From assembly GCA_000525675.1 (NCBI GenBank), contig CP002190.1, positions 2,480,001 through 2,544,000 of the forward strand: a DNA stretch of 64,000 bases. Direction: 5' to 3'. Of the stretch, positions 51,407 through 63,676 are shown piece by piece (positions within the stretch are counted from its first letter, which is position 1; each line of letters starts with the position of its first letter). A program made the position numbers and the translations under genes. Under the pieces are notes generated by a model that saw only the letters and a list, made by a program, of their open reading frames with translations, was not told the origin of the DNA and searched no databases. The DNA is from Bdellovibrio bacteriovorus W (lineage in GTDB: Bacteria > Bdellovibrionota > Bdellovibrionia > Bdellovibrionales > Bdellovibrionaceae).

Positions 51407-51484
51407 ATTTCAATCTAGCAATTTCATTCTTGTAAAGTGATTCACCTCTGGTTTCAGCCCATAAAGAAGCCGGAGGAAAAATCT

Positions 51485-52843
51485 ATGAAAAAATCATTTC
51501 TACTTTTGGGAGCCGCTTTCACACTCGGTAGCTCCAATAGTTTGGCCCTGAGCCTCAATGAGATTGTTGGCCTTAAGCGCACGGAGTATAAATCTCCACA
51601 AGGTATTTCAGAAGTCTGCGCAACCCCTCGCAAATGGGCCGGTGCCAACTATACCGACTCCGATGCAAAAAAAGAAAACACTCTTTGTGGTTATGATTTC
51701 TATGCTACTGTCGGAATTTGCCCTAAGTATTCCTCAACCAATCCTGGGTTGATGATTATTGAACCAGATGAGAAATTTTCTAAGCAAGCCATCGACTCTT
51801 CAAGCTGTGATCTAAAAAAACTTGGCTTAAAAACCGATGCAAAATTCAAACAATCCATCACCTGCTCTTACACGCCTTCGATTCTAGGTTACTATCACCT
51901 CTCAAGAATTCTTGGTGATGTCGGCCGCGTACCTGTTTCTGTTTTCAGATCGATTGATATTAAAACCCACAAAGCACAAACCACCAAAGCTGTGAACTCT
52001 TTGCGCAATTCCAAGCTTGCGATTAAGGACTCTTGGGCAATGCTAGAGAAGGTTCATGCAAACCCACAAAACTATCCCAATCTAGTGGATCGCTCTGGTA
52101 CTCAGATGTTCGGAGCGCTTTCTGATAATGTTCGCAATGAAGAACAGTACGTAGAAGTCAGCGGAGTGGGCTCTTACGATACTCGCTATGAACGCTTTAT
52201 TAAACAAAGGCCGTATCAAATTGTCAGCAGCTCTTCAAGCCCACAACAACTTATTGGCAGCAATGAATTTACGCGAGTCGCTCAAACGGCCCTACAAATG
52301 AAAGACGTTTCCGATATGGTCATTATTGACACCCTCATGAACCAACAAGATCGCATAGGAAATATTCACTACAAATTTGTCTGGTATACGATCAATCCAC
52401 AATCTTCAACTCTGGAAAGATTCAAGTCCAAAGCAAAAATTAAAGACGGAAAAATCACCATTCCAGCTGAAGAGAAAACTGCCATGGCGAATCGCAAAGC
52501 AGTTCTATTGAAAGAAATGATCTTAAAAGATAATGACTGCGGAGTTACTAAAACTAATATGATGAGAAAGGTTTCTGCGATCGAAGGGCTTAAACACGTC
52601 AGCTACCGCACCTATGCCAATCTCTTAACCTTTGAACAGGCTCTTGCCGGAGCTTCTGCTAAAGATTTCTTCACTAAAGAACTTCTTTTCACAGAGGCTG
52701 ACTATAATCTTCTAAAACGCAACGCTCTTTTTGCTCGACAAGTACTTGTTAAAAAATGCCAATCCGGAGAACTGAAGTTTGACGTCGATCTTGAAGACTA
52801 TATCCCAGGAGCAACTCCCGTTCGCAAAGCTTGCGGAAGCTAA
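51485..52843 (+). CDS. Secreted protein with Fam20C-like atypical kinase motifs
   Basis: The ATG at 51485 has GGAGGA 8 bases upstream and starts a signal peptide (about 1-22). The 452-residue protein has three features seen together in Fam20C-type and related atypical kinases. These are a YHLSRILGDVGRVPVSVFR helix (137-155, compare FHLDRILG...VPP), a catalytic-loop-like DTLMNQQDRIGNIHYKF (D289, N293), and a later LKDNDCG (347-353) where the metal-binding D-x-G is expected. Eight or more cysteines suggest disulfides. Kinase activity is inferred, not shown; no nucleotide lysine was pinned down. It is convergent with the polyphosphate operon. Confidence 0.6.
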   Translation: MKKSFLLLGAAFTLGSSNSLALSLNEIVGLKRTEYKSPQGISEVCATPRKWAGANYTDSDAKKENTLCGYDFYATVGICPKYSSTNPGLMIIEPDEKFSKQAIDSSSCDLKKLGLKTDAKFKQSITCSYTPSILGYYHLSRILGDVGRVPVSVFRSIDIKTHKAQTTKAVNSLRNSKLAIKDSWAMLEKVHANPQNYPNLVDRSGTQMFGALSDNVRNEEQYVEVSGVGSYDTRYERFIKQRPYQIVSSSSSPQQLIGSNEFTRVAQTALQMKDVSDMVIIDTLMNQQDRIGNIHYKFVWYTINPQSSTLERFKSKAKIKDGKITIPAEEKTAMANRKAVLLKEMILKDNDCGVTKTNMMRKVSAIEGLKHVSYRTYANLLTFEQALAGASAKDFFTKELLFTEADYNLLKRNALFARQVLVKKCQSGELKFDVDLEDYIPGATPVRKACGS

Positions 52844-52867: not shown

Positions 52868-52903
52868 GAAAAAGTCGCAAGAGGAAATCCTTGCGACTTT
52901 TTA
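52868..52903. terminator. Bidirectional rho-independent terminator
   Basis: AAAAAGTCGCAAG pairs with CTTGCGACTTTTT around an 8-base loop. It lies between the kinase-like gene and the VTC gene and touches the VTC stop codon. Confidence 0.9.
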
Positions 52904-53677
52904 TCGATACAAAAATCCTGGACTTTGTACGTCCGGTCTTTGATGAAGAGTCAGCATTGAGTTACCGAACTTTGAAAATGAACCTCCCATGAGTTCAAAC
53001 TTTCGAATCAGATCAATAAACCAAAGTGGAATCTTCTTTTCACATTTAAGTTCTAGAACAACACAGGTTCCTGACTCTCCAAAAGACTCCGGATGATCGT
53101 AGTGAACCATCATTCTCTCTTCTGGAGTCACAGTCCAATCAAAGACCTCTTGAAAGCGAAGGTCTCGATCAAATGTCACTCGTGCATAATCATCAATTTC
53201 TGAGATATAGGCTTTGCGTCGATACTGAGTTAGAATCACAGGGCCGGTATTATACACCTCACGATAATTTAAGAACTCCATCAGGTTTTCTAAACCGTCA
53301 ACTCCTGTGGGTAAATCACCATCAAGGAAAGACACCCAATCATCATTCATGTATTTGGCTCTCTTCTTGCGTACAAACTCACGGACTTTATGTTTAATTT
53401 CAAAGAAGTAAGGACCACTTTTCCCATCGCCATAAGAACGAATGCGCATGTTAAAACTATAAGCCTGAGCCATTTCCTTAGCTCTCATGAGGTAGAGACT
53501 CGGTGAATCCAGATATAAAGAGTTAATCGTATAAAAGCAGTCCTTTTCAATTTGTGAATAGTAGTCCATATGACAGTATGTTTCGACATATCGAGAGATT
53601 GGATCTACCAACTCAAGGGGAATGAGATACTTGAGTTCATAGCGTTCTAAGTTTAATGGAGATACCGCAACACTCAT
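52901..53677 (-). CDS. VTC-type polyphosphate polymerase domain protein
   Basis: VTC domains are triphosphate-tunnel enzymes that make polyphosphate from ATP. The 258-residue protein is a bare catalytic domain with the tunnel residues intact: ERYELKYLI (E14, K16), R78-I-R80 (MRIRSY), E93-I-K95 (FFEIKHK), QYRRKAY (152-157), RVTFDRDLRF (R166, D170), E209-L-K211 and the SKFGNS end (K236). There is no membrane helix or SPX domain, so it must be recruited by partners. Its ATG overlaps the stop of the outer-membrane component by four bases. Last gene of a four-gene unit. Confidence 0.88.
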   Translation of the reverse strand: MSVAVSPLNLERYELKYLIPLELVDPISRYVETYCHMDYYSQIEKDCFYTINSLYLDSPSLYLMRAKEMAQAYSFNMRIRSYGDGKSGPYFFEIKHKVREFVRKKRAKYMNDDWVSFLDGDLPTGVDGLENLMEFLNYREVYNTGPVILTQYRRKAYISEIDDYARVTFDRDLRFQEVFDWTVTPEERMMVHYDHPESFGESGTCVVLELKCEKKIPLWFIDLIRKFELMGGSFSKFGNSMLTLHQRPDVQSPGFLYR

Positions 53678-54831
53678 GAGATAGGGCCTTCTTGAAAAAG
53701 AAAATTTCTTTGCGGTTGTTTTGCGAGCAACTCACTTTCTAAAAGAAACTGAATATACTGAGTATAGAGATCTATCTGAAGATCTACGGATTCTATACAC
53801 TGACTGCCTTGAGATATCTTTTCTTCAAGTTTTTCCAGAGGATCTGTAGCCGAAGTGCGTTTTAAATTTCTTTCTGAATCAATGATCTCAAAGTCTGTCA
53901 GGGTGTTCAGAAGTTTTGTTCTTAAAACACTCAATCCTTCTCTTTCTTCAAGATCCCGTTTTTTCTGCGCCCTCTTAAAAACCAATTCATTCTTTTTTTG
54001 AATAGCAGACTCGTCAGAAAATAAGAAAGGTAGCTGAATGCTGACTTGAACCTCGTACACATCTTCATCTTTCTTATTCTTCTTAGAAACTCCGATACTC
54101 TTAATCCACTGGTCTTCCTTGCCTTGAACAACTTCAATCTCTTTTTGTAGTTGATCAATCTCTTGATGCCCAAGCCTCAAACTCAAAGTTTCGATTCTTT
54201 CTAGGGGAATCTCATTCACGACAGCCTCAATTGCTTTGGCAGAAAGAAAGGGTGCTACAAAGCGGTCTTCTTCTTTAAATTTTTGCTCCCAGTGCTGAAT
54301 GAGTTTCGTATTTTGCAAAATTTCATATTCCAATTGGCGAACCAAACGTTCATTTTTCAAAGTATCTAGACGAGCCTTAGTAAAAGTCTTTCCACTGGCT
54401 CTTCCCGCCTTCAAAGAAACGCCCTGCGCCTCTGTCCAGCGCTTCAGCGAATCATGCGCTGCTTGGGCGCACTTCATTTTCTCACTTAAAAGCTTGTGCT
54501 TCATAATTGCGATATAGCGAGTGTGCAACGCCCAGCTCAGAGAAAAGCTCTCAACCACTCTCTCTGCATCTTTCGAGGTGTTTCTCAGTTTCCATTCAGG
54601 ATAGGACTTAAATTGAAACTTTAGGCCGACCTCAGTTTCCTTATTCGCATCCGTTTCTTGCGAAGCCGTAAGTTCCACATTACGAAAGGGGTTGGCCGTA
54701 CTGGGGCTTATCCGATTTGTTTGGGAAACATAGAACTCATCTGCCCATGCAGTTTTTAAGACATCATTTGTCGTGACGGCGTTACAGGAAAAGGCCACGA
54801 GCCAAATGCCAAAACCCATAATCCAATTCAT
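53674..54831 (-). CDS. TolC-like outer-membrane/periplasmic coiled-coil component
   Basis: The 385-residue protein has a signal peptide (about 1-18). The long heptad-rich helices (about 80-200 and 285-380, such as ESFSLSWALHTRYIAIMKHKLL and CIESVDLQIDLYTQYIQFLLESELLA) are separated by amphipathic strands (VYEVQVSIQLPFLF, VGLKFQFKSYP). That is the layout of a TolC-type outer-membrane channel subunit, although sequence signatures are weak and the protein is shorter than usual. The call leans on the adaptor gene just upstream, with which it overlaps by ATGA. It may be the exit channel of the polyphosphate operon (inference). Confidence 0.55.
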   Translation of the reverse strand: MNWIMGFGIWLVAFSCNAVTTNDVLKTAWADEFYVSQTNRISPSTANPFRNVELTASQETDANKETEVGLKFQFKSYPEWKLRNTSKDAERVVESFSLSWALHTRYIAIMKHKLLSEKMKCAQAAHDSLKRWTEAQGVSLKAGRASGKTFTKARLDTLKNERLVRQLEYEILQNTKLIQHWEQKFKEEDRFVAPFLSAKAIEAVVNEIPLERIETLSLRLGHQEIDQLQKEIEVVQGKEDQWIKSIGVSKKNKKDEDVYEVQVSIQLPFLFSDESAIQKKNELVFKRAQKKRDLEEREGLSVLRTKLLNTLTDFEIIDSERNLKRTSATDPLEKLEEKISQGSQCIESVDLQIDLYTQYIQFLLESELLAKQPQRNFLFQEGPIS

Positions 54832-56453
54832 AATAGAGCCCCTAGAGCAGAAGTTTCAGAGAGAAAGAAGCCTTCTGATCCTCCGACAAGAGAAAACACC
54901 GTTTCGTCTTTAAAATAGAGACTGCGCAAGTTCTTTTGCTCGAGCGATTTTAAAGTTCGATGACTCTTTTTTGTAAAATCATACAGATGAGGCATAAACT
55001 TACCAGTCTCATCAGCGACTGCGAAGAAAACGGACTCTCCACCGGCACTGCCACTAATAATATTTTTCCCAAGAAAACCATCAAGTTTTAAATGAGCACT
55101 GGCAAAGGAAGTAAGTTTCCTTACATCTTCAAGTTTATACTTTCTAAGCTCCACTTCTTCTCTAGAAAGAATCGCCAAAATAAGTGAATCTCTGTGAAGC
55201 CAAACTTCCACATCGCTTCCCTTCAACTTCTCCTGTAAGCCCGCAAGACTCACTCTCTCTAAAACTAAAAATCGATATCCCTCTCGATGGGCTTTGATGA
55301 CTTCATCAACTTTGCCAAAGCGTTTTACAAGAAAGTAGTAAGTTGATCCCAAGTTGCTCAGCCCCACAATCTCGCTCCCTTTAAGCTCTTTAAGCTCAAA
55401 GGCATGTGGAAGTACTTTTCCATTTTCTTGCAAGAGTAAGATCCCTGTGGACTGAGGGTCCTTTTGACTATAGGTCACGACGACTTTCTTTAAGTCATTC
55501 GAATAGCTTAAATTCAAAAGGCTCAAAGAATTTGAATCTAATTGAATATCCTCTGGCAAAGAGATACGGCGACTGTTCTTCGGAGAAACCTCCAAAAGTT
55601 CATCTGCCTGCGCTTCGCTCATAAGGCTGATACTTAGTTTTTTAAGGACACTGACTTTTTCGCCAACTAAGAGATTGTTGTCGGTTGGGATTTTAACGAC
55701 AACCTCTCTCCCCCATGCTGTTAGAGTTTGTATTCGTAAGAGTCTTTCCGGGATAGGAACAATACGCACCCCAATACTTACGACAGTTCCTTGAATGGCG
55801 TCACCTGACGGAGATACCACTTCAACTTTTTCGCCAATCTTAAACTTCGATTGAAGGTTTTCATTTAAGTATCCATGAACGTACATTGGTCTTAAAGGAA
55901 TCAAAGTCAAAATCGGATTAAAAGCCGAAACCAGTTCTCCGGCCTTAAAGTTAATGGCACCCACGGCTCCATCAACTTCAGAAAAAACAAAGAGATTCTC
56001 TAGGCGATTTTCTAAAACTTTTCTTTCGGCTTCTGCCTCTAAAAAGTCCGCCATCAAAGGGTCAGCTCCATCTGGTAGATCCATTTTCTCATTGGCTATT
56101 TTTGCGATGTGCTGACGAAGATTTATTTCGGCCATGAGCTTATCAATACGGCCCTTAAGAAGCCTTAGTTGAGACTCTAAGTTTTCCTGATTGAGCTCTA
56201 AGAGAAGATCCCCCTTATTAACAACTTGCCCAGGCAGAACATGGATCTTTTTTATTTCCACGGCACTGTCAAAATTTACCTGATACTCTTTGGAATCGGC
56301 CACGCCCAAAATGCGAATCGGCTCGAAACTTAAATACAAACCCACGACGATAATTGCAATCACCGCCCCCCACCAAGAAAAGAATAAAAGGCGATTGTCC
56401 TGTCCTACAATATCGTTCAACCAAGACCTTGGCGTGCTCCATATTCTTTTCAC
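54828..56453 (-). CDS. HlyD-type membrane fusion adaptor with long C-terminal extension
   Basis: The 541-residue protein starts at GTG with GAGG 8 bases upstream. It has a membrane anchor (about 23-44), a lipoyl/barrel-sandwich half (VEIKKIHVLPGQVVNKGDLLLELN), a short coiled-coil hairpin (about 85-155), the second lipoyl half (LFVFSEVDGAVGAINFKAGELV) and the beta-barrel (MYVHGYLNENLQSKFKIGEKV). About 270 further residues follow, with repeated strand-rich blocks that look like a beta-propeller. Normal adaptors end near 300-400 residues. It bridges inner- and outer-membrane partners encoded on either side. Confidence 0.8.
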   Translation of the reverse strand: MKRIWSTPRSWLNDIVGQDNRLLFFSWWGAVIAIIVVGLYLSFEPIRILGVADSKEYQVNFDSAVEIKKIHVLPGQVVNKGDLLLELNQENLESQLRLLKGRIDKLMAEINLRQHIAKIANEKMDLPDGADPLMADFLEAEAERKVLENRLENLFVFSEVDGAVGAINFKAGELVSAFNPILTLIPLRPMYVHGYLNENLQSKFKIGEKVEVVSPSGDAIQGTVVSIGVRIVPIPERLLRIQTLTAWGREVVVKIPTDNNLLVGEKVSVLKKLSISLMSEAQADELLEVSPKNSRRISLPEDIQLDSNSLSLLNLSYSNDLKKVVVTYSQKDPQSTGILLLQENGKVLPHAFELKELKGSEIVGLSNLGSTYYFLVKRFGKVDEVIKAHREGYRFLVLERVSLAGLQEKLKGSDVEVWLHRDSLILAILSREEVELRKYKLEDVRKLTSFASAHLKLDGFLGKNIISGSAGGESVFFAVADETGKFMPHLYDFTKKSHRTLKSLEQKNLRSLYFKDETVFSLVGGSEGFFLSETSALGALL

Positions 56454-56456
56454 GGC

Positions 56457-57140
56457 CTATACCTCAATCACAGATTCTTGATTCATAAAGTTCACACCTC
56501 GCATTGTCTGCACCTGAGCCAGCTGATCAATAAGATGGGCTGACGTGAAGTCGTTGCGAAGTCGAATTTGATAGGAATAATCTAAACGCCCACCTTGAGC
56601 AGTTTCACGGATCGTAGCCAAAGCAAAATGCCGGCATTGATTCTCGAGGATGAGTTCCACTTGCTTTTGTGCCTCTAGATTTCTTTCCATATTAAATCGC
56701 AACAAACCATCAAACTGTGGTCCCGTCGCAAAGTTAGCACCTCTTAAAACAAGCAATGCGCTAGCAAAACAAGCTGTTCCTAAGATGGCAATTCCATAGG
56801 CATGAACTCCAGAAGCAAGTCCGATAGCAAGAGAGGCAAAGATAAAAAACATATCTCGTGGATCTTTGACATTGGTTCTAAATCTTAAAAGAGACAATGC
56901 TCCGATCATCCCGATCCCTCTTGCCACATTGTCCCCGATGGCCTGCATCGCTATGGCGATGACAATTGGAAGCAAAACAAGTCCGTGCAGAAAGTTCAAC
57001 GAATAGGAGAGTCCCTTAAAGGTGCGCACGTAAATAATCGCAAGAACAGTTCCCAAAACAAAACTTAGCAAAAAAGCATAAACCGCAGAAATCCATGTTG
57101 GATTCATAAACGATGAATTTAGAATGGCAAAATCCAGCAT
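56457..57140 (-). CDS. DUF4956 membrane protein
   Basis: The 227-residue protein has four or five hydrophobic helices in the first 135 residues. It carries the DUF4956 signature around RGIGMIGALSLLRFRTNVKDPRDMFFIFASLAIGLASG and then a cytoplasmic domain with a ferredoxin-like pattern (VELILENQCRHFALATIRET). DUF4956 genes are often found beside VTC polymerase and CotH genes, and the membrane part is a reasonable channel or anchor for the polymerase (inference). AAGGAAAATGAA precedes the ATG. First gene of the four-gene unit; the adaptor GTG follows 3 bases after its stop. Confidence 0.87.
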   Translation of the reverse strand: MLDFAILNSSFMNPTWISAVYAFLLSFVLGTVLAIIYVRTFKGLSYSLNFLHGLVLLPIVIAIAMQAIGDNVARGIGMIGALSLLRFRTNVKDPRDMFFIFASLAIGLASGVHAYGIAILGTACFASALLVLRGANFATGPQFDGLLRFNMERNLEAQKQVELILENQCRHFALATIRETAQGGRLDYSYQIRLRNDFTSAHLIDQLAQVQTMRGVNFMNQESVIEV

Positions 57141-57274
57141 TTCATTTTCCTTTTTTTAGAAAATTCACACCGGATATATAAGACTTGTATTGATAGTTTA
57201 TAAAGGACTAGGACGAGGACCTGCGATGTAACAAGAAGAATTCAAAGATGAATTACATCTCTGCAAAGAAGCCT

Positions 57275-58000
57275 CTAAAAGCGATAGCCTAACTTTGCAC
57301 CATAGAAAGAATCTTCATAGCGATTGATCTCAACTGCCGCAAAAAATCCCGACAAAGAAAAGCTCATTCCTAAAAGACTATGCGTCTTCATAATACTATG
57401 TTCAACAGTAACACCTTCAGCGGTAATTCCATTACTGCCTCCGATGAATTGTGCCGATCCTCGCACCTGACCAATTCCAATGTAGGCTGCCACTCGATCA
57501 ACACTCACTGTCGCTAATAAATCGCCACCAAAAGAGGATGCGTTGACGAGATTCGCGAAGTTTGCCCCACCTGCATATAGAGACATACTCAAAGCAAACG
57601 GAAAGTATGAAGACTCATAGAAACCCCAGCGCAACTGAGCACCATAGGTTTGAATTCCCGATTCTTGGCGAAGAGGCGTGAAGTATACAAATGTGTCGAC
57701 GTTGTGGTGAATCCCTTTTCCTAGCATGAGCGTGTTGTAGGAAAAACTGTCCTTGTTGGGACTCTTTCCACCTAACTCTGCGAGATCCTCTGTAGGGATG
57801 AACTCGGCAGATAAACCGAATTCGATGCCGGAGTAGCCACCCAATGGGTAAGGATTTCCTAAAATTTTAGGTGCAGTACCTAAAGCCAAAATTTCTGTGG
57901 CACGAAGACGATCCGACGCATTTAAGTTCTTTGGTAAAACGAAAGCCGCATGGACTTGCTGGGTAAGTAGAATAACTATGGAAAGAATAAAAAACTTCAC
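57275..58000 (-). CDS. Outer-membrane beta-barrel-like protein of unknown function
   Basis: A longer frame starts at 58045, but the GTG at 58000 has GAGG 6 bases upstream and opens a signal peptide (KFFILSIVILLTQQVHA|A), giving 241 residues. The mature part alternates amphipathic strands rich in Gly, Tyr and Phe (GYSGIEFGLSAEF, VDTFVYFTPL, GAQLRWGFYES, ALSMSLYAGG) and ends YGAKLGYRF, with a C-terminal phenylalanine typical of outer-membrane barrels. No family was recognised. It precedes the DUF4956 gene by 134 bases on the same strand. Confidence 0.75.
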   Translation of the reverse strand: MKFFILSIVILLTQQVHAAFVLPKNLNASDRLRATEILALGTAPKILGNPYPLGGYSGIEFGLSAEFIPTEDLAELGGKSPNKDSFSYNTLMLGKGIHHNVDTFVYFTPLRQESGIQTYGAQLRWGFYESSYFPFALSMSLYAGGANFANLVNASSFGGDLLATVSVDRVAAYIGIGQVRGSAQFIGGSNGITAEGVTVEHSIMKTHSLLGMSFSLSGFFAAVEINRYEDSFYGAKLGYRF

Positions 58001-58063
58001 AATGGGCCTCTTCGATTCTTCTATCTCGTGCCCATTGTTACACATTTCAAATATGTGTCACTA

Positions 58064-59134
58064 TTAAAGAGAGGCGACTGCCTGCTGCATCTGACTCAAT
58101 GCCACCAAGGCTTGAGAAGAAATTACCGAATTTCCACTTCCCGAAAGAGTTTGGAAAATTGGAATGAACTTATTGAATTCCTCGACTGTTGTGATTTTCC
58201 CATCGCCACGTTGATCACGTGGATCAGAAGCAACATTTTGTCCTGATTTAGCCTTTGCATAACCATTCATCACAACCTGAAGTGCGATCTCTACCACTTC
58301 GGGATTTTTAGCTTGTAAAGCCCCTGCTAGTGCAGAAAAACGGCTCGCAATTGCAAAACCTTCTAAAAATTCGTGAAGCTCACCTTGGTATTCAGCAGGT
58401 ACTTGCTCTAAGTATTGTGCCGCTAAAGTAAAGCTTGTTGCTGTATAGGCTGCTTTAACAAGAACAACTGCCATCTCAAGACGGTCTGGACGACCATCAA
58501 CGAAAAGTTCCTCAGTAATCGCATAATAGCTACTTGAATCCAAATCACCACTGCGAAATGCTGAAATCATTTTTTGAATATTTTCAACTGTAGGCGCCGC
58601 AAGAATAAGAGTTCTCCATTGATCTCCAGTTTTCTTTTCACCTTGCTGCTCGACATTTCCAGAATCGCTGCCGACCTTACCTTGATTCTGGTCAGCTATT
58701 GCAACTCCTGTGCGTTGGTTGGCTTGCCCATTGGCCCAACCATCTTCGCCACCGAGAGCTGTTGCCCCAGAGGCTGGAATGATTGTCACATCCATTTTCT
58801 TAGCTGGAGGTAACGCCGATACACGCTTTGCAACTTGTGTTTTTTTCGTCTGTACAACAGGTGGAGCCTTCTTAGCGTCTTCTTTGGCCTTAGCATCCTT
58901 GGCTGCAACTTTTTTCTTATCAAATGGATTAACGTATTTTCTTTCTACTTCACGATCACCCAAACTAAAAAGCGCAGAGAGGAAGCTTACTTTTGGGCGT
59001 GGCATTTCATAGACGACGTCTTGTTCGTTTTGAACTGGAGATAATGAGGCCTTGTTCACATGAACCAGTCCCATCACGATAATTACGCCCAAGCCAGCCA
59101 TTGAAATTTCTAGTTTTTTATCTGCTATGCTCAT
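58064..59134 (-). CDS. Membrane-anchored protein of unknown function
   Basis: The ATG at 59134 has GGAGG 5 bases upstream, giving 356 residues. One membrane helix (about 11-24, GLGVIIVMGLVHV) is followed by a Lys/Ala-rich linker (KKKVAAKDAKAKEDAKKAPP). An unstructured Gly/Gln part comes next, then a helical C-terminal domain of about 170 residues (ENIQKMISAFRSGDLDSSSY onward), possibly TPR-like. It may span the periplasm like a TonB- or GspC-type linker, but no family was recognised. The beta-barrel-like gene follows after 63 bases, so co-transcription is likely. Confidence 0.72.
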   Translation of the reverse strand: MSIADKKLEISMAGLGVIIVMGLVHVNKASLSPVQNEQDVVYEMPRPKVSFLSALFSLGDREVERKYVNPFDKKKVAAKDAKAKEDAKKAPPVVQTKKTQVAKRVSALPPAKKMDVTIIPASGATALGGEDGWANGQANQRTGVAIADQNQGKVGSDSGNVEQQGEKKTGDQWRTLILAAPTVENIQKMISAFRSGDLDSSSYYAITEELFVDGRPDRLEMAVVLVKAAYTATSFTLAAQYLEQVPAEYQGELHEFLEGFAIASRFSALAGALQAKNPEVVEIALQVVMNGYAKAKSGQNVASDPRDQRGDGKITTVEEFNKFIPIFQTLSGSGNSVISSQALVALSQMQQAVASL

Positions 59135-59248
59135 AGGGCCTCCTGTTCTTAATATCTTTAAGAGCAGTGCCTGTGCCATCTTGAATTGCGTTTAAATGTG
59201 GATAGAGTGTCTCAACTTGATCGAGAGACAATTAGAGCAATCAGCTGT

Positions 59249-59629
59249 CTACTTCTTAGGCGATCCAGGGCAGAAGCCAGGACGTGGGCCAATCGAGGGG
59301 AACTCTCGGCAAGTATCAGGGCGTTTCTCGTAAACAGTACATAGACGTGTGGTCGAATCTAAAAACAGACAATCTCTATTTGCCTTCTGAGTCAGCATAA
59401 AAAACTCCGTCCCAGATCGATACGAAGAAATAATGCCTTCTTTAGTCAGTCTTTTTGCGAGCTTTTTAATAGAGGCTGAAGCTTCATCTTCAGTGGTAAG
59501 TCCTAAGCGGATGAGATCAGAAAGTCGGATTTCGACGGGCATGGTGCAACACCCGCCGAAACAGCCCTCGCACATCTCTGTGCGATAGGGCTTCCATGTA
59601 GAAGGGCGATCAATATCAGGTCTTTTCAT
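59249..59629 (-). CDS. YkgJ family cysteine-cluster protein
   Basis: The 126-residue protein has the CxxC-x3-CC cluster (C20, C23, C27, C28 in MCEGCFGGCC) plus C87, C97, C107 and C120 (RDCLFL, RLCTVYEKRPDTCREFP, GFCPG). This is the YkgJ/zinc- or iron-chelating pattern, which likely holds an Fe-S cluster or zinc. No signal peptide, so cytoplasmic. It starts 5 bases after the deacetylase stop and is the last gene of the polysaccharide group. The role is unknown. Confidence 0.87.
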   Translation of the reverse strand: MKRPDIDRPSTWKPYRTEMCEGCFGGCCTMPVEIRLSDLIRLGLTTEDEASASIKKLAKRLTKEGIISSYRSGTEFFMLTQKANRDCLFLDSTTRLCTVYEKRPDTCREFPSIGPRPGFCPGSPKK

Positions 59630-59634
59630 AAATC

Positions 59635-60771
59635 CTAAGGAAGACGTTTCTTCACCAGCTTGCTGTTTGTTCTAGCTTTAGCATCAGAAGATTGAAGTAA
59701 TACAATGCTGTAACCACGTTTGTGAAGCTCTTTTAAGAACTCTGGCATAATCTCAGCCGTTCTTCTTTGGATATCATGGAAAAGAACTACTCCACGACCA
59801 CGAGCCTCAATACGAGAAATTGTATTTCTTAATAGAGTCTCATTTGATTGAGCTTTCCAGTCTTCAGAGTCAATCGCCCAGAAGAAATCACCTACTGAGT
59901 TTTGACGTAAGAAATTCTTCAATTCAGGAGAAGACTCACCGTATGGGAAACGGAAGAATGGATCTACGAAGCCAAGAGTGTCATAGACCGCTTGATGCGC
60001 GCCTCTGATCTCTGCTGAAGCTTCTTCAAGAGTCAGGTTCTTACCGTTTGTTTTACGGCAAGCTACACTGTTACCTAGACACGCATGAGTCATAGAGTGA
60101 GAACCCACCGCATGTCCATCAGCTGCAACACGCTTTACGATCTCTGGGTTTGAACGAACGTTACGACCTAAAAGGAAGAAGATCCCCTTTGCGTTTACTT
60201 CTTTCAATGATCTCAAAATAGAGTCTGTATAAACTCCACTTGGTCCGTCATCGAACGTGATAACTACTTCTTTACGGCCTACATCTCCACTGATGGCATA
60301 GTAACCATTCGTCGTATCACGATACTGAACGTTATCTGCAAATTTAAAGGCATTGCGAGAACCCGTTAAAGACATTGGATTCACAGGTACAGAAAGCGTC
60401 GCTCTCTCACCTTCATAGTATTTTTCGATTTTTTCTAGCAACTCATCCTTACAGTCATTGAGTAAGGCACGGTTGGCTTCGTCACGAATATCATTATCAA
60501 ATAAAGTAAGCTTCTCACCTTCTAAAAGGTTCAACTCTTTACAGATCTCAGCAGAAAGTTGTGCTTGGCGCTCGCTATCCATCATCATGTCGTCGCGCCA
60601 TTGCTTGAAAAGAACTTCAGGATGGTTGGGCGATGTCTCCCACTCCATATAGCTAGTTGCATTCTTATTGTCCTCTACAGACTGCTGAATGCTTTTGCTG
60701 ACTTGGTTTCCACAACCTACTAAGGCTGAGGCCGATAACATCATCATTCCACCTAATAAAACTCTTTTCAT
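59635..60771 (-). CDS. Lipoprotein polysaccharide deacetylase (NodB domain)
   Basis: A CE4 deacetylase of 378 residues with a lipoprotein signal ending ALVGC (C20), a helical region (about 50-125) and a NodB domain. Metal and catalytic motifs are complete: TFDDGP with D174 and D175, H225 and H229 in GSHSMTH, RFPYGE with R274, and LFHD with H332. It could remove acetyl groups from the exopolysaccharide made by its neighbours or from peptidoglycan GlcNAc. Bdellovibrio is known to use CE4 enzymes on prey wall, but a prey target is not shown here. It lies 10 bases after wzz. Confidence 0.93.
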   Translation of the reverse strand: MKRVLLGGMMMLSASALVGCGNQVSKSIQQSVEDNKNATSYMEWETSPNHPEVLFKQWRDDMMMDSERQAQLSAEICKELNLLEGEKLTLFDNDIRDEANRALLNDCKDELLEKIEKYYEGERATLSVPVNPMSLTGSRNAFKFADNVQYRDTTNGYYAISGDVGRKEVVITFDDGPSGVYTDSILRSLKEVNAKGIFFLLGRNVRSNPEIVKRVAADGHAVGSHSMTHACLGNSVACRKTNGKNLTLEEASAEIRGAHQAVYDTLGFVDPFFRFPYGESSPELKNFLRQNSVGDFFWAIDSEDWKAQSNETLLRNTISRIEARGRGVVLFHDIQRRTAEIMPEFLKELHKRGYSIVLLQSSDAKARTNSKLVKKRLP

Positions 60772-60781
60772 CTTGCACCTT

Positions 60782-62200
60782 CTATTGTGTTAAATCTGTC
60801 CCTTGTCCTACATTTAGAACATTCCAAGCAACTTTATGCTGCTCTTCTCCTTGTTCTTTCTCGTTCTTCGCATCCGGCTTTTTTAAACTAAATTTAATCT
60901 TAGAGTTTTCGATAATGACCCGAGGGTCGGTGGAGTTATTATCGAAAATAACCAAGTTTCTAGAGGCTTGCGCTGTAACCACATGCGGATTCCAAAGGTA
61001 TTTAAAGTAAATCACCAGTGAACCCGCAAACTGACTCAAAATGAGAGCCAGCAGTCCTAAGCTAAGAAGTCCAATCTGTGGAAGAGTATTCTCCCATCTT
61101 GCGAGCTCCAAAACTTCAAATCGTGAACCGATCGAAAGCTTTTGAGCTTCGAGCTTTGCCAACGCGCCACTAAGTTCTTTGTAGCGGTTAAACTCAAACT
61201 CTGACTTCTTCTTTAAGTCCTCTACCATTTGCTGTGCAAACGGTAGGCCACGCACCTCGTTCTTAATACGGGCAGTAGTGGCCTGAACCTGTGTCAATTT
61301 TTCTGACAGGAGACTATTTTCGATCTTCAATGACTCAATTTTCCCACCCACACCATACAGCGTGCTTTCCCGCTGACCGTTGCGTCCTTTATCTAAATAA
61401 TGGATGAGGCGTTGATTCTCGGAGATCTTAAGTTTGATCTCATTCGCTCGAACGATCAATTCTGAGACATATTCACCCATCTTATCTTTAGATGCTAAAG
61501 GTAAGAGGTTTTCATCTTTGTTTTGCAACTCTGCAAGCTGCTTACTAAAATTAGCAAGCTTCACATCTGCATCTTTACGCTGTTGGGTCATGAACTCTTC
61601 GACACGGCTAATCTCTGCAAGCTCTCTCACACGCAAGGTCTCTGCTGAAAGCTCAGAAGCCGTATTCGCCAAGAAAAGCGAGACCTCTCGAAAAGGAGTC
61701 AGTGCTTCGACTTTGATTTCAAACTCTGAGCTTAAAGAAAACTTAGTCCAACGATCCAGCCTCTGAAGGAAGGCTACTCTCTCTTCAGGGCTGTTAAGAT
61801 TGCCCATTAGATCACTCTTTAAAAGTTCGAATCCTTTTTTTTCCTCCAAAGTAATTTTAGGACTCATTCCTCGGGCTTGAATACGCTGTGCGAGAGAGTC
61901 ATAGAACTCCCGTGTCTTTAAGTATTCAAGGTGCTTCGATAATAAACTATTCCCCTTCTTAGATTCTTGCAGTGCCTTCGAAAGACCGAAGAACTGCGTC
62001 GAGAAGGCTTGCATCGCCGAGTTTTGAGAGTCATTGATCACAATGCTGGATGTTGCCACATAGGGCACCTTCACAGCATAGTAAGCGGCACAGACTCCAA
62101 AGATTCCTACCAGAAAAAGTAAGAACATGCGCCAATGAGAAATATAAAGTCTGATAATTTCGCCAACACTTAATTCTGGCTCGATATGCTGATTGCCCAT
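60782..62200 (-). CDS. Wzz/GumC-type polysaccharide chain-length regulator
   Basis: A polysaccharide co-polymerase of 472 residues. The first helix (about 24-43, MFLLFLVGIFGVCAAYYAV) leads to a Wzz domain with the conserved start YVATSSIVIND. A long periplasmic coiled coil follows (about 180-370), then the second helix near 385-410 with flanking residues, and a cytoplasmic tail of about 70 residues without a BY-kinase domain. The start is placed at 62200 (MGNQHIEPELSV), with GAGGGG 5 bases upstream; the frame is open to 62308. It works with the O-antigen ligase/polymerase upstream. Confidence 0.88.
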   Translation of the reverse strand: MGNQHIEPELSVGEIIRLYISHWRMFLLFLVGIFGVCAAYYAVKVPYVATSSIVINDSQNSAMQAFSTQFFGLSKALQESKKGNSLLSKHLEYLKTREFYDSLAQRIQARGMSPKITLEEKKGFELLKSDLMGNLNSPEERVAFLQRLDRWTKFSLSSEFEIKVEALTPFREVSLFLANTASELSAETLRVRELAEISRVEEFMTQQRKDADVKLANFSKQLAELQNKDENLLPLASKDKMGEYVSELIVRANEIKLKISENQRLIHYLDKGRNGQRESTLYGVGGKIESLKIENSLLSEKLTQVQATTARIKNEVRGLPFAQQMVEDLKKKSEFEFNRYKELSGALAKLEAQKLSIGSRFEVLELARWENTLPQIGLLSLGLLALILSQFAGSLVIYFKYLWNPHVVTAQASRNLVIFDNNSTDPRVIIENSKIKFSLKKPDAKNEKEQGEEQHKVAWNVLNVGQGTDLTQ

Positions 62201-62292
62201 ATAGACCCCTCTTGAAAAACTGCGATTCAAAATGGTGAATTGAATAGCCCTTGTTTTCCCACTTTCTGAAGTCTTTGGCTCGTGTTTATTCC

Positions 62293-62306
62293 GCAATAAA
62301 TATTGC
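62293..62306. promoter_or_regulatory. Perfect palindrome upstream of the wzz-like gene
   Basis: GCAATAAATATTGC has 6-base arms and a 2-base centre, 93 bases before the wzz start. It may be an operator or part of a promoter. Confidence 0.3.
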
Positions 62307-62368
62307 ATGCGTGAAACCTACACGCAGGAAATGATTTGTTCGTTGAAAACTCGCAGGACACAGCGAAT

Positions 62369-63676
62369 TTATTTTGCCGTGACATCTCTTTCTTGAGGAG
62401 GCTCGTAGGTCCAACTGACTGAAGCTGCTGCTACAAAACCAAAAACTAACCAGTACAACCTGTCTGCCATTCCACCCAAAGATAGATGGATATGGTAAAT
62501 AATCAGAATGGGGATATGGGCGCATAGATAAATTGCAACTTGTCGTTTAAAAAGGTCCGGAGACTTTAAAGCCTTAAGCCCTCCAATAGTCATAAGCACT
62601 AAAGCAATGACTCCCATAAATAACAGAGGCCAACCACCAATCACCCCGGCGGAGATTAAAATATTGTGGGGATCTTTCATGGCATTGTAACTAGTGACAC
62701 TGACTTCTTCGCCAGCGGCAAACTTTGATGCCAAACCATGACCAAGCCACTGTGACTCTCTAAACATCTGCGCTCCACGCTCCACTTCCTCCCAACGAGA
62801 AGCAACTCCATCTTGAGCTTCACGTCCTCCAAGGGCGGCCTTTCCCATAGCGACAGATCTAACAAAGTCATAGGCCTTTAAGCCAAACAACATGGTAAAG
62901 GAAAGTGACAACGTAATAAAAGCAAACTTAAAGAGACGCCCTTGATTGGTTTTAGTTCTATGCAAAATCATTGTGAGAATAAATGCTGCGACGGCGGCTG
63001 CGGCTGATGAGCGAGTGCCTGTCAAAATGATTGCAAAAAAACTTGCCCCAATGATAAGTGCATTCCAAAGACGCTCTGTGCGACTCTTGGAATCTATAAA
63101 AGTTGTCAGAGAAAAAATAAAGGCCACAGTGGCACAAGTCACCATGTGAGGGATGTGTTTAAACACACCAATAAAACGCCCTCCTTTAAACGCGGCACCT
63201 TTAGAAAAGAAAAGCATCGCTAAGGAAATTAACACCAACACACCGGCCCAGCGTTGGATAAACTTGACGAAGCTTTTCGCATCCCATGCACTCGGAATAA
63301 CTAAACCACAAATTAAAACCATAAAAACAGACGTCACCAAGGCGGCAAGATCCATTAAGCGCGACTCGCCTCTATAGACATAGTTCATCTGTAAAAATGT
63401 TTGCGCCACTAAAAGAAGAATCAGTAGCAAACAAAAAAGCTTATAAAAACCACTGAGATGATTTCGATTCTTCATCCTCATCCACAGAAATAATAAAGGC
63501 ACTCCTGTTAAAAAACTTAAGACCACATTCAAATAGGGATGCATCCCCGCCTGAAAAAGAACGAACGAAAACGAGCGCGGCACTGGTAAGAAACCTGCCA
63601 GCGAAACCTTGGATATAAATACCAAAGAGACAAATGCCTTTATTAAAAAAACAATGCGCCCGTCTAACTTTCGCAT
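62369..63676 (-). CDS. O-antigen ligase/polymerase (Wzy_C family) membrane protein
   Basis: The 435-residue protein has about 11-12 membrane helices and a large periplasmic loop (about 270-345). The loop contains the conserved pattern SRWEEVERGAQMFRESQWLGHG, followed by the MKDPHNILI histidine, as in WaaL/Wzy proteins. TGTRSSAAAAV occurs in the helix before the loop. Whether it ligates O-antigen to lipid A-core or polymerises repeat units cannot be decided by sequence; the wza and wzz neighbours favour an exopolysaccharide polymerase. It starts 10 bases after wza. Confidence 0.87.
   Translation of the reverse strand: MRKLDGRIVFLIKAFVSLVFISKVSLAGFLPVPRSFSFVLFQAGMHPYLNVVLSFLTGVPLLFLWMRMKNRNHLSGFYKLFCLLLILLLVAQTFLQMNYVYRGESRLMDLAALVTSVFMVLICGLVIPSAWDAKSFVKFIQRWAGVLVLISLAMLFFSKGAAFKGGRFIGVFKHIPHMVTCATVAFIFSLTTFIDSKSRTERLWNALIIGASFFAIILTGTRSSAAAAVAAFILTMILHRTKTNQGRLFKFAFITLSLSFTMLFGLKAYDFVRSVAMGKAALGGREAQDGVASRWEEVERGAQMFRESQWLGHGLASKFAAGEEVSVTSYNAMKDPHNILISAGVIGGWPLLFMGVIALVLMTIGGLKALKSPDLFKRQVAIYLCAHIPILIIYHIHLSLGGMADRLYWLVFGFVAAASVSWTYEPPQERDVTAK

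Follow-up and report, generated by a model that had tools for sequence, protein, structure and literature searches.

The exported protein and its genomic setting

Within the window, a stretch of 64,000 nucleotides from the genome of Bdellovibrio bacteriovorus W, an open reading frame on the forward strand (51485-52843) begins with an ATG at 51485, closes with a stop codon ending at 52843 and encodes a protein of 452 amino acids (Table 1). A ribosome-binding site, GGAGG, lies 5' of the ATG at 51472-51476, and the N-terminus, MKKSFLLLGAAFTLGSSNSLALS, reads as a Sec signal peptide. This agrees with the initial annotation, which had described a signal-peptide protein. The three strings that it had quoted as kinase motifs were all found in the protein, namely YHLSRILGDVGRVPV at residues 137-151, NQQDRIGN at 286-293 and LKDNDCG at 347-353. 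The gene is present as a single copy in the genome (3.0 Mb, one contig). A probable surface-polysaccharide cluster that includes the VTC, HlyD-type adaptor and DUF4956 genes occupies the opposite strand at 52901-63676. Four of its proteins (53674-54831, 57275-58045, 58064-59179 and 60782-62308) gave no convincing Pfam family.

Table 1. Features of the kinase-like gene and of the adjoining cluster, with positions in the window.
Feature	Position	Strand	Basis
Fam20-like kinase-fold protein, 452 aa, exported (predicted)	51485..52843	+	ORF, ribosome-binding site, AlphaFold model, Fam20 best match
Sec signal peptide, residues ~1-22	51485..51550	+	sequence reading; model pLDDT <50 at residues 1-6 and 8-18
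E64, invariant acid in N-lobe helix; candidate stand-in for the ion-pair acid	51674..51676	+	45/45 homologues
Beta-3 strand K120-F-K122, candidate ATP-binding lysines	51842..51850	+	both 45/45; predicted strand 119-122
Helix 130-142 and strand 152-158 (TPSILGYYHLSRILGDVGRVPVSVFRSID), pairs with Fam20	51872..51958	+	profile alignment to Fam20
Catalytic loop NQQDRIGN, D289 and N293	52340..52363	+	D289, R290, N293 46/46; aligned with Fam20 DRHHYE
Metal site LKDNDCG, D349 and D351	52523..52543	+	46/46; DN..G pattern as in Fam20 LDNGRG
VTC-domain protein (polyphosphate polymerase type), convergent neighbour	52901..53677	-	PF09359 E 3.6e-43
Conserved protein of VTC operon, no family assigned	53674..54831	-	Pfam scan
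HlyD/RND-type periplasmic adaptor	54828..56453	-	PF13437 E 7e-9; TIGR01730 E 1.6e-16, below its cut-off
DUF4956 membrane protein	56457..57140	-	PF16316 E 6e-13
Polysaccharide deacetylase	59638-60771	-	in probable surface-polysaccharide cluster
O-antigen ligase-like protein	62372-63676	-	in probable surface-polysaccharide cluster

The predicted fold is closest to that of Fam20 kinases

The AlphaFold model of the 452-residue protein had a mean pLDDT of 93.6 and a pTM of 0.91. A Foldseek search against the PDB with this model returned three matches below E 0.001, all of them Fam20C (E 5e-6 to 8e-6, probability 1.00); the next-best match was a PI3K at E 0.056. In a structural aligner, hydra Fam20 scored best (Z 18.1, rmsd 4.3 over 276 residues), followed by DrFam20C1 (Z 18.0), human FAM20C (17.1) and worm Fam20 (16.1). 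Among the proteins outside Fam20, Z was 15.8 for PI4KII, 12.3 for CtkA, 10.8 for HipT, 10.7 for CotH and 8-10 for HipA. A fold unrelated to kinases, which the initial annotation had named as grounds for abandoning its proposal, was thus not what the searches returned.

The profile comparison gave the same result. Aligned with hhalign to Fam20, the family profile reached a score of 34.3, which none of 300 column shuffles attained (mean 15.4, maximum 27.1), and the reversed profile scored 13.3. The Fam20 side consisted of four sequences, fetched with a Fam20C query and compared as they stand in the PDB entries. At equal settings, the P value was 6e-5 for Fam20 vs 0.22 for CotH. The strongest segment was ILGYYHLSRILGDVGRVPVSVFR, and the full alignment was collinear, pairing D289-R290 with the DR motif of Fam20. 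We are highly confident that the exported protein adopts a Fam20-type atypical kinase fold. Of the Fam20C/CotH-like fold originally proposed, the Fam20 part is therefore retained, but CotH proved to be the more distant relative.

Searches of Pfam, NCBIfam and PDB sequences, with the single protein as well as with alignments, recognised no family. At E 1, the Pfam models for Fam20C (PF06702), HipA and the PI3/PI4 kinases matched neither the window protein nor any of 28 aligned members, and the CotH model (PF08757) had no match in these proteins or elsewhere in this genome. The Fam20C model likewise found nothing in this genome, and across 191 genomes of the phylum none of its matches fell on the Fam20-like family. 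Another Bdellovibrio protein, L064 (G021:C1:3103363-3103524, reverse strand), which lies outside that family, gave a weak match to the Fam20C model (E 4e-4); with its motifs NGDRHGFNYL and IDHGLSFG, it is probably a second bacterial kinase-fold protein. One survey calls Fam20 a Metazoa-specific cluster (PMC9758233). The literature search, whose coverage excluded preprints and many subscription papers, found no bacterial Fam20 family and no Bdellovibrio with CotH or VTC. The Fam20-like bacterial family is thus absent from the family libraries and from the literature searched.

Active-site residues are invariant, with a different spacing and other cysteines

In the alignment, D282, D289, R290, N293, D349, N350 and D351 were identical in all 46 homologues, and E64, K120, K122, H371 and D433 in all 45 that cover these positions. 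G353 was kept in nearly all. The initial annotation had read the second and third motifs as catalytic loop and metal site, and had stated that poor conservation of D289, N293 or the DxD/DxG aspartate would speak against a kinase; the invariance of D289, N293, D349 and D351 bears out this reading. The catalytic-loop DR motif of Fam20 corresponds to D289-R290, and its DN..G metal motif to D349-N350, where the equation of D349 with the Fam20 metal aspartate is based on the shared DN..G pattern and the fold, not on the profile alignment. The order and the identity of the motifs are of the Fam20 type, but their spacing, which had also been taken as the expected one, is not: 60 residues separate D289 from D349, whereas the catalytic and metal aspartates of FAM20C (DRHHYE to LDNGRG) are 20 residues apart. 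The greater distance is due to an insertion that comprises strands and a helix. A diverged paralogue group of about 550-570 aa, found in several Bdellovibrio genomes, retains all of these active-site residues in three members (L085, L086 and L088), which are devoid of Cys127 and Cys352.

In active Fam20 kinases, the beta-3 lysine forms an ion pair with a glutamate or aspartate, a position taken by glutamine in the pseudokinase Fam20A (PMC5865150). This acid is E213 in the worm and D152 in the hydra protein. In the aligned homologues, acidic residues were absent from the stretch between K122 and H138, whose helix corresponds to Fam20 FHLDR. Because the ion-pair acid is absent from its usual place, activity is likely but not assured, and we regard a catalytically active phosphotransferase as the probable state of the protein, judging from its sequence.

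Eight cysteines are conserved and are lost in pairs: 79 and 108 in L019, 127 and 352 in L030 and the paralogues, and 425 and 450 in L058. These pairwise losses point to disulfides 79-108, 127-352 and 425-450, leaving 45-68 by elimination. The four-disulfide pattern of Fam20 with its CC motif was not found, and none of the disulfides proposed here resembles it.

Distribution of the family

A search with the single protein matched 36 of 99 related genomes, as did a profile built from 32 diverse members. Many members of the genus have no full-length copy, and several Bdellovibrio genomes gave no match. Further homologues came from scanning the species genomes of GTDB, namely in Bradyrhizobium, Methylococcales, Thiotrichaceae, Silvanigrellales, Halobacteriovorax and a Verrucomicrobia bin. 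In the midpoint-rooted tree, the copies from Bradyrhizobium and Methylococcales formed one clade (support 100/99) inside the Bdellovibrionota sequences, with enclosing branches at 95/85 and 95/94. This nested position suggests that the gene reached Bradyrhizobium and Methylococcales by horizontal transfer. In one Methylococcales bin, a DSP-like gene is followed by two tandem homologues (L045:1434-4269), which share about 27% and 36% identity with the window protein.

A phosphatase-like partner and DUF2252 proteins often accompany the kinase gene

When the neighbours of 33 homologues were grouped, two main families recurred, one DSP/PTP-like and the other DUF2252. The DSP/PTP-like protein, predicted to be exported or lipoprotein-like, stands beside the kinase in eight loci (for example L031:8838-9641 on the reverse strand, L042:9186-9860 and L045:768-1370). 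The family has no NCBIfam coverage, and one member matched DSPc and related Pfam models weakly. For the model of one member (pLDDT 78.7, pTM 0.76), Foldseek placed TpbA at the top (E 7e-4, probability 1.00), and the Tk-PTP phosphatase and AtPFA-DSP1 matched as well, the latter with a Z of 14.0. The canonical P-loop HCxxGxxR[ST] was not found in the eight aligned sequences, which read HCWxGxH[AS][ST]G: cysteine and glycine are kept, and the arginine is replaced by serine or alanine in all eight.

Strong partner matches occurred in 26 of the 99 genomes, all among the 36 with the kinase; two weaker ones (E 8e-5 and 9e-4), in kinase-negative genomes, were left out of this count. The hypergeometric value of the co-occurrence is 5e-16, a figure that ignores the relatedness of the genomes. 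By coordinates, the partner adjoins the kinase in 16 of the 26 genomes and does so in more than one arrangement: in 11 genomes of the genus and in a single other genome it lies upstream in divergent orientation, and four others have it downstream of the kinase in the same orientation. Kinase/DSP-fold loci also occur in Bradyrhizobium and Methylococcales. We are fairly confident that kinase and phosphatase-like partner are linked across the family. In B. bacteriovorus W, a search detected no DSP-like gene at the locus or elsewhere. By sequence, the phosphatase-like gene is cleanly lost from this genome; the pair is thus not obligatory, and the loss accounts for the absence of partner genes from the initial annotation.

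DUF2252, which a survey places in the kinase clan as a family whose lobes are flipped (PMC9758233), matched a gene beside the kinase homologue in seven loci, and in L034:9911-12379 a single protein fuses the Fam20-like kinase to a DUF2252 kinase-like domain. Genomes that lack the Fam20-like kinase widely carry DUF2252 genes too, so that co-occurrence alone is no evidence here, and it is the adjacency and the fusion that count. Metallophosphatase genes adjoin two further homologues.

The VTC/DUF4956 operon

By coordinates, the kinase gene is convergent with the VTC gene in 12 Bdellovibrio genomes, this one included. The relative L087 has the order rsmE, RDD, rfaE2, DSP-like gene and kinase, followed by VTC, the unassigned gene, HlyD and DUF4956; the window has the same order minus the DSP-like gene. 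Around homologues outside the genus, a search for relatives of the VTC operon found only DUF4956, directly upstream of the kinase homologue on one Thiotrichaceae contig, and we therefore give the VTC link moderate weight. Limited to one genus and that contig, it may reflect inherited synteny. A link between the kinase and the VTC/DUF4956 system is accordingly a tentative proposal, to which we give somewhat less than even odds. In Gram-positive bacteria, CotH, a polyphosphate polymerase and DUF4956 have been described as a set of accessory genes next to pel (PMC7112168), and in G064, another genome of the order, CotH and VTC lie close together. By analogy, the Fam20-like gene may fill the place of CotH.

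Proposed function and alternative explanations

We favour, with a probability of roughly 70%, an exported, disulfide-rich enzyme of the Fam20 type that acts on an envelope or surface substrate, usually together with a DSP-fold partner. Building on the predicted export and fold and on the aligned active site, we infer catalysis, substrate, ATP source and functional pairing as follows. After export, the protein would fold with its disulfides and bind ATP together with a divalent metal between the lobes. Phosphate would then be moved to a protein or glycan of the envelope or surface, and the exported DSP-fold protein, where kept, would oppose or read this modification. The setting in Bdellovibrio would likely be the surface-polysaccharide and VTC/DUF4956 system beside the kinase, where other bacteria keep CotH. 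The scarcity of ATP outside the cytoplasm speaks against this proposal.

A pseudokinase of the same fold, or an enzyme that does not phosphorylate, would explain why the Fam20 ion-pair acid is missing from its usual place; such a protein could be an allosteric partner, as Fam20A is for Fam20C, or transfer AMP or amino acids. The kinase-like fold of the associated DUF2252, fused to one homologue, and the partner's lack of the P-loop arginine are consistent with this. However, pseudokinases usually lose some of the active-site residues, and here both active-site aspartates, N293 and the two beta-3 lysines never vary among 46 diverged homologues, while the invariant E64 could replace the ion-pair acid. 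We therefore consider a pseudokinase unlikely. Still less probable is a family related to CotH, PI4K or HipA rather than to Fam20. The superfamily fold is shared, PI4KII lies merely about 2 Z units under Fam20, and VTC and DUF4956 are known companions of CotH (PMC7112168), but the Foldseek and profile scores clearly favour Fam20 over CotH, and no member scanned matched a CotH, HipA or PI3/4-kinase Pfam model.

The initial annotation had suggested that the kinase could act on prey proteins. Its presence in Bdellovibrio and its predicted export would suit a predation factor sent into prey, but homologues exist in Bradyrhizobium, Methylococcales and Thiotrichaceae, copies are missing from many members of the genus, and the surroundings are a surface-polysaccharide cluster. 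The occurrence in 36 of 99 relatives and in Bradyrhizobium and Methylococcales thus does not support a predation-specific role, which is possible but not favoured, and we judge prey-directed export very improbable.

Returning to the envelope-directed enzyme, a broader and more speculative idea, which we regard as doubtful, is a bacterial module for extracytoplasmic phosphorylation, in which a Fam20-type kinase, its DSP-fold partner and often DUF2252 would be exported together and would modify an envelope protein or glycan with extracytoplasmic ATP. A parallel is Fam20B, which phosphorylates xylose. If such a module exists, secreted kinases of the Fam20 type are not confined to animals, and the bacterial family would offer a simple system for studying kinases outside cells, the origin of their ATP and the bacterial roots of Fam20. 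The finding also points to a family outside the coverage of Pfam and NCBIfam.

Comparison with known systems

The partner shares a predicted PTP fold and a signal peptide with TpbA and the PFA-DSP phosphatases, and differs from them in the missing arginine of the P-loop, which in these enzymes reads HCxxGxxR[ST]G. PI4-kinase type II, H. pylori CtkA and HipA/HipT resemble the Bdellovibrio kinase in their superfamily fold, but they show no sequence match and are cytoplasmic or membrane lipid kinases and toxin kinases. The spore-coat kinase CotH is, as predicted for the Bdellovibrio protein, an atypical bacterial kinase of an envelope or coat layer, and its genes often adjoin VTC/PPP and DUF4956 genes (PMC7112168), as does the Bdellovibrio gene. 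CotH differs in its lower Z and in the lack of a Pfam or profile match, and it has been described as having no DFG-type metal motif (PMC12189002), whereas the Bdellovibrio family has DND.

With the Fam20 proteins of animals (Fam20C, Fam20B and hydra Fam20), the family has in common export through the secretory pathway, the overall fold (Z 16-18), the HLxRIL...RVP helix-strand signature, the catalytic DR loop and the DN..G metal site. Both are rich in disulfides, predicted ones in our case, with unlike cysteine patterns. Fam20 is animal and the present family bacterial, and in the latter the loop between beta-3 and the helix is shorter and carries no ion-pair acid. Owing to this missing acid, the other disulfides and the 60-residue spacing, we do not file the family as Fam20 proper; it is a sister-like family that probably works like Fam20.
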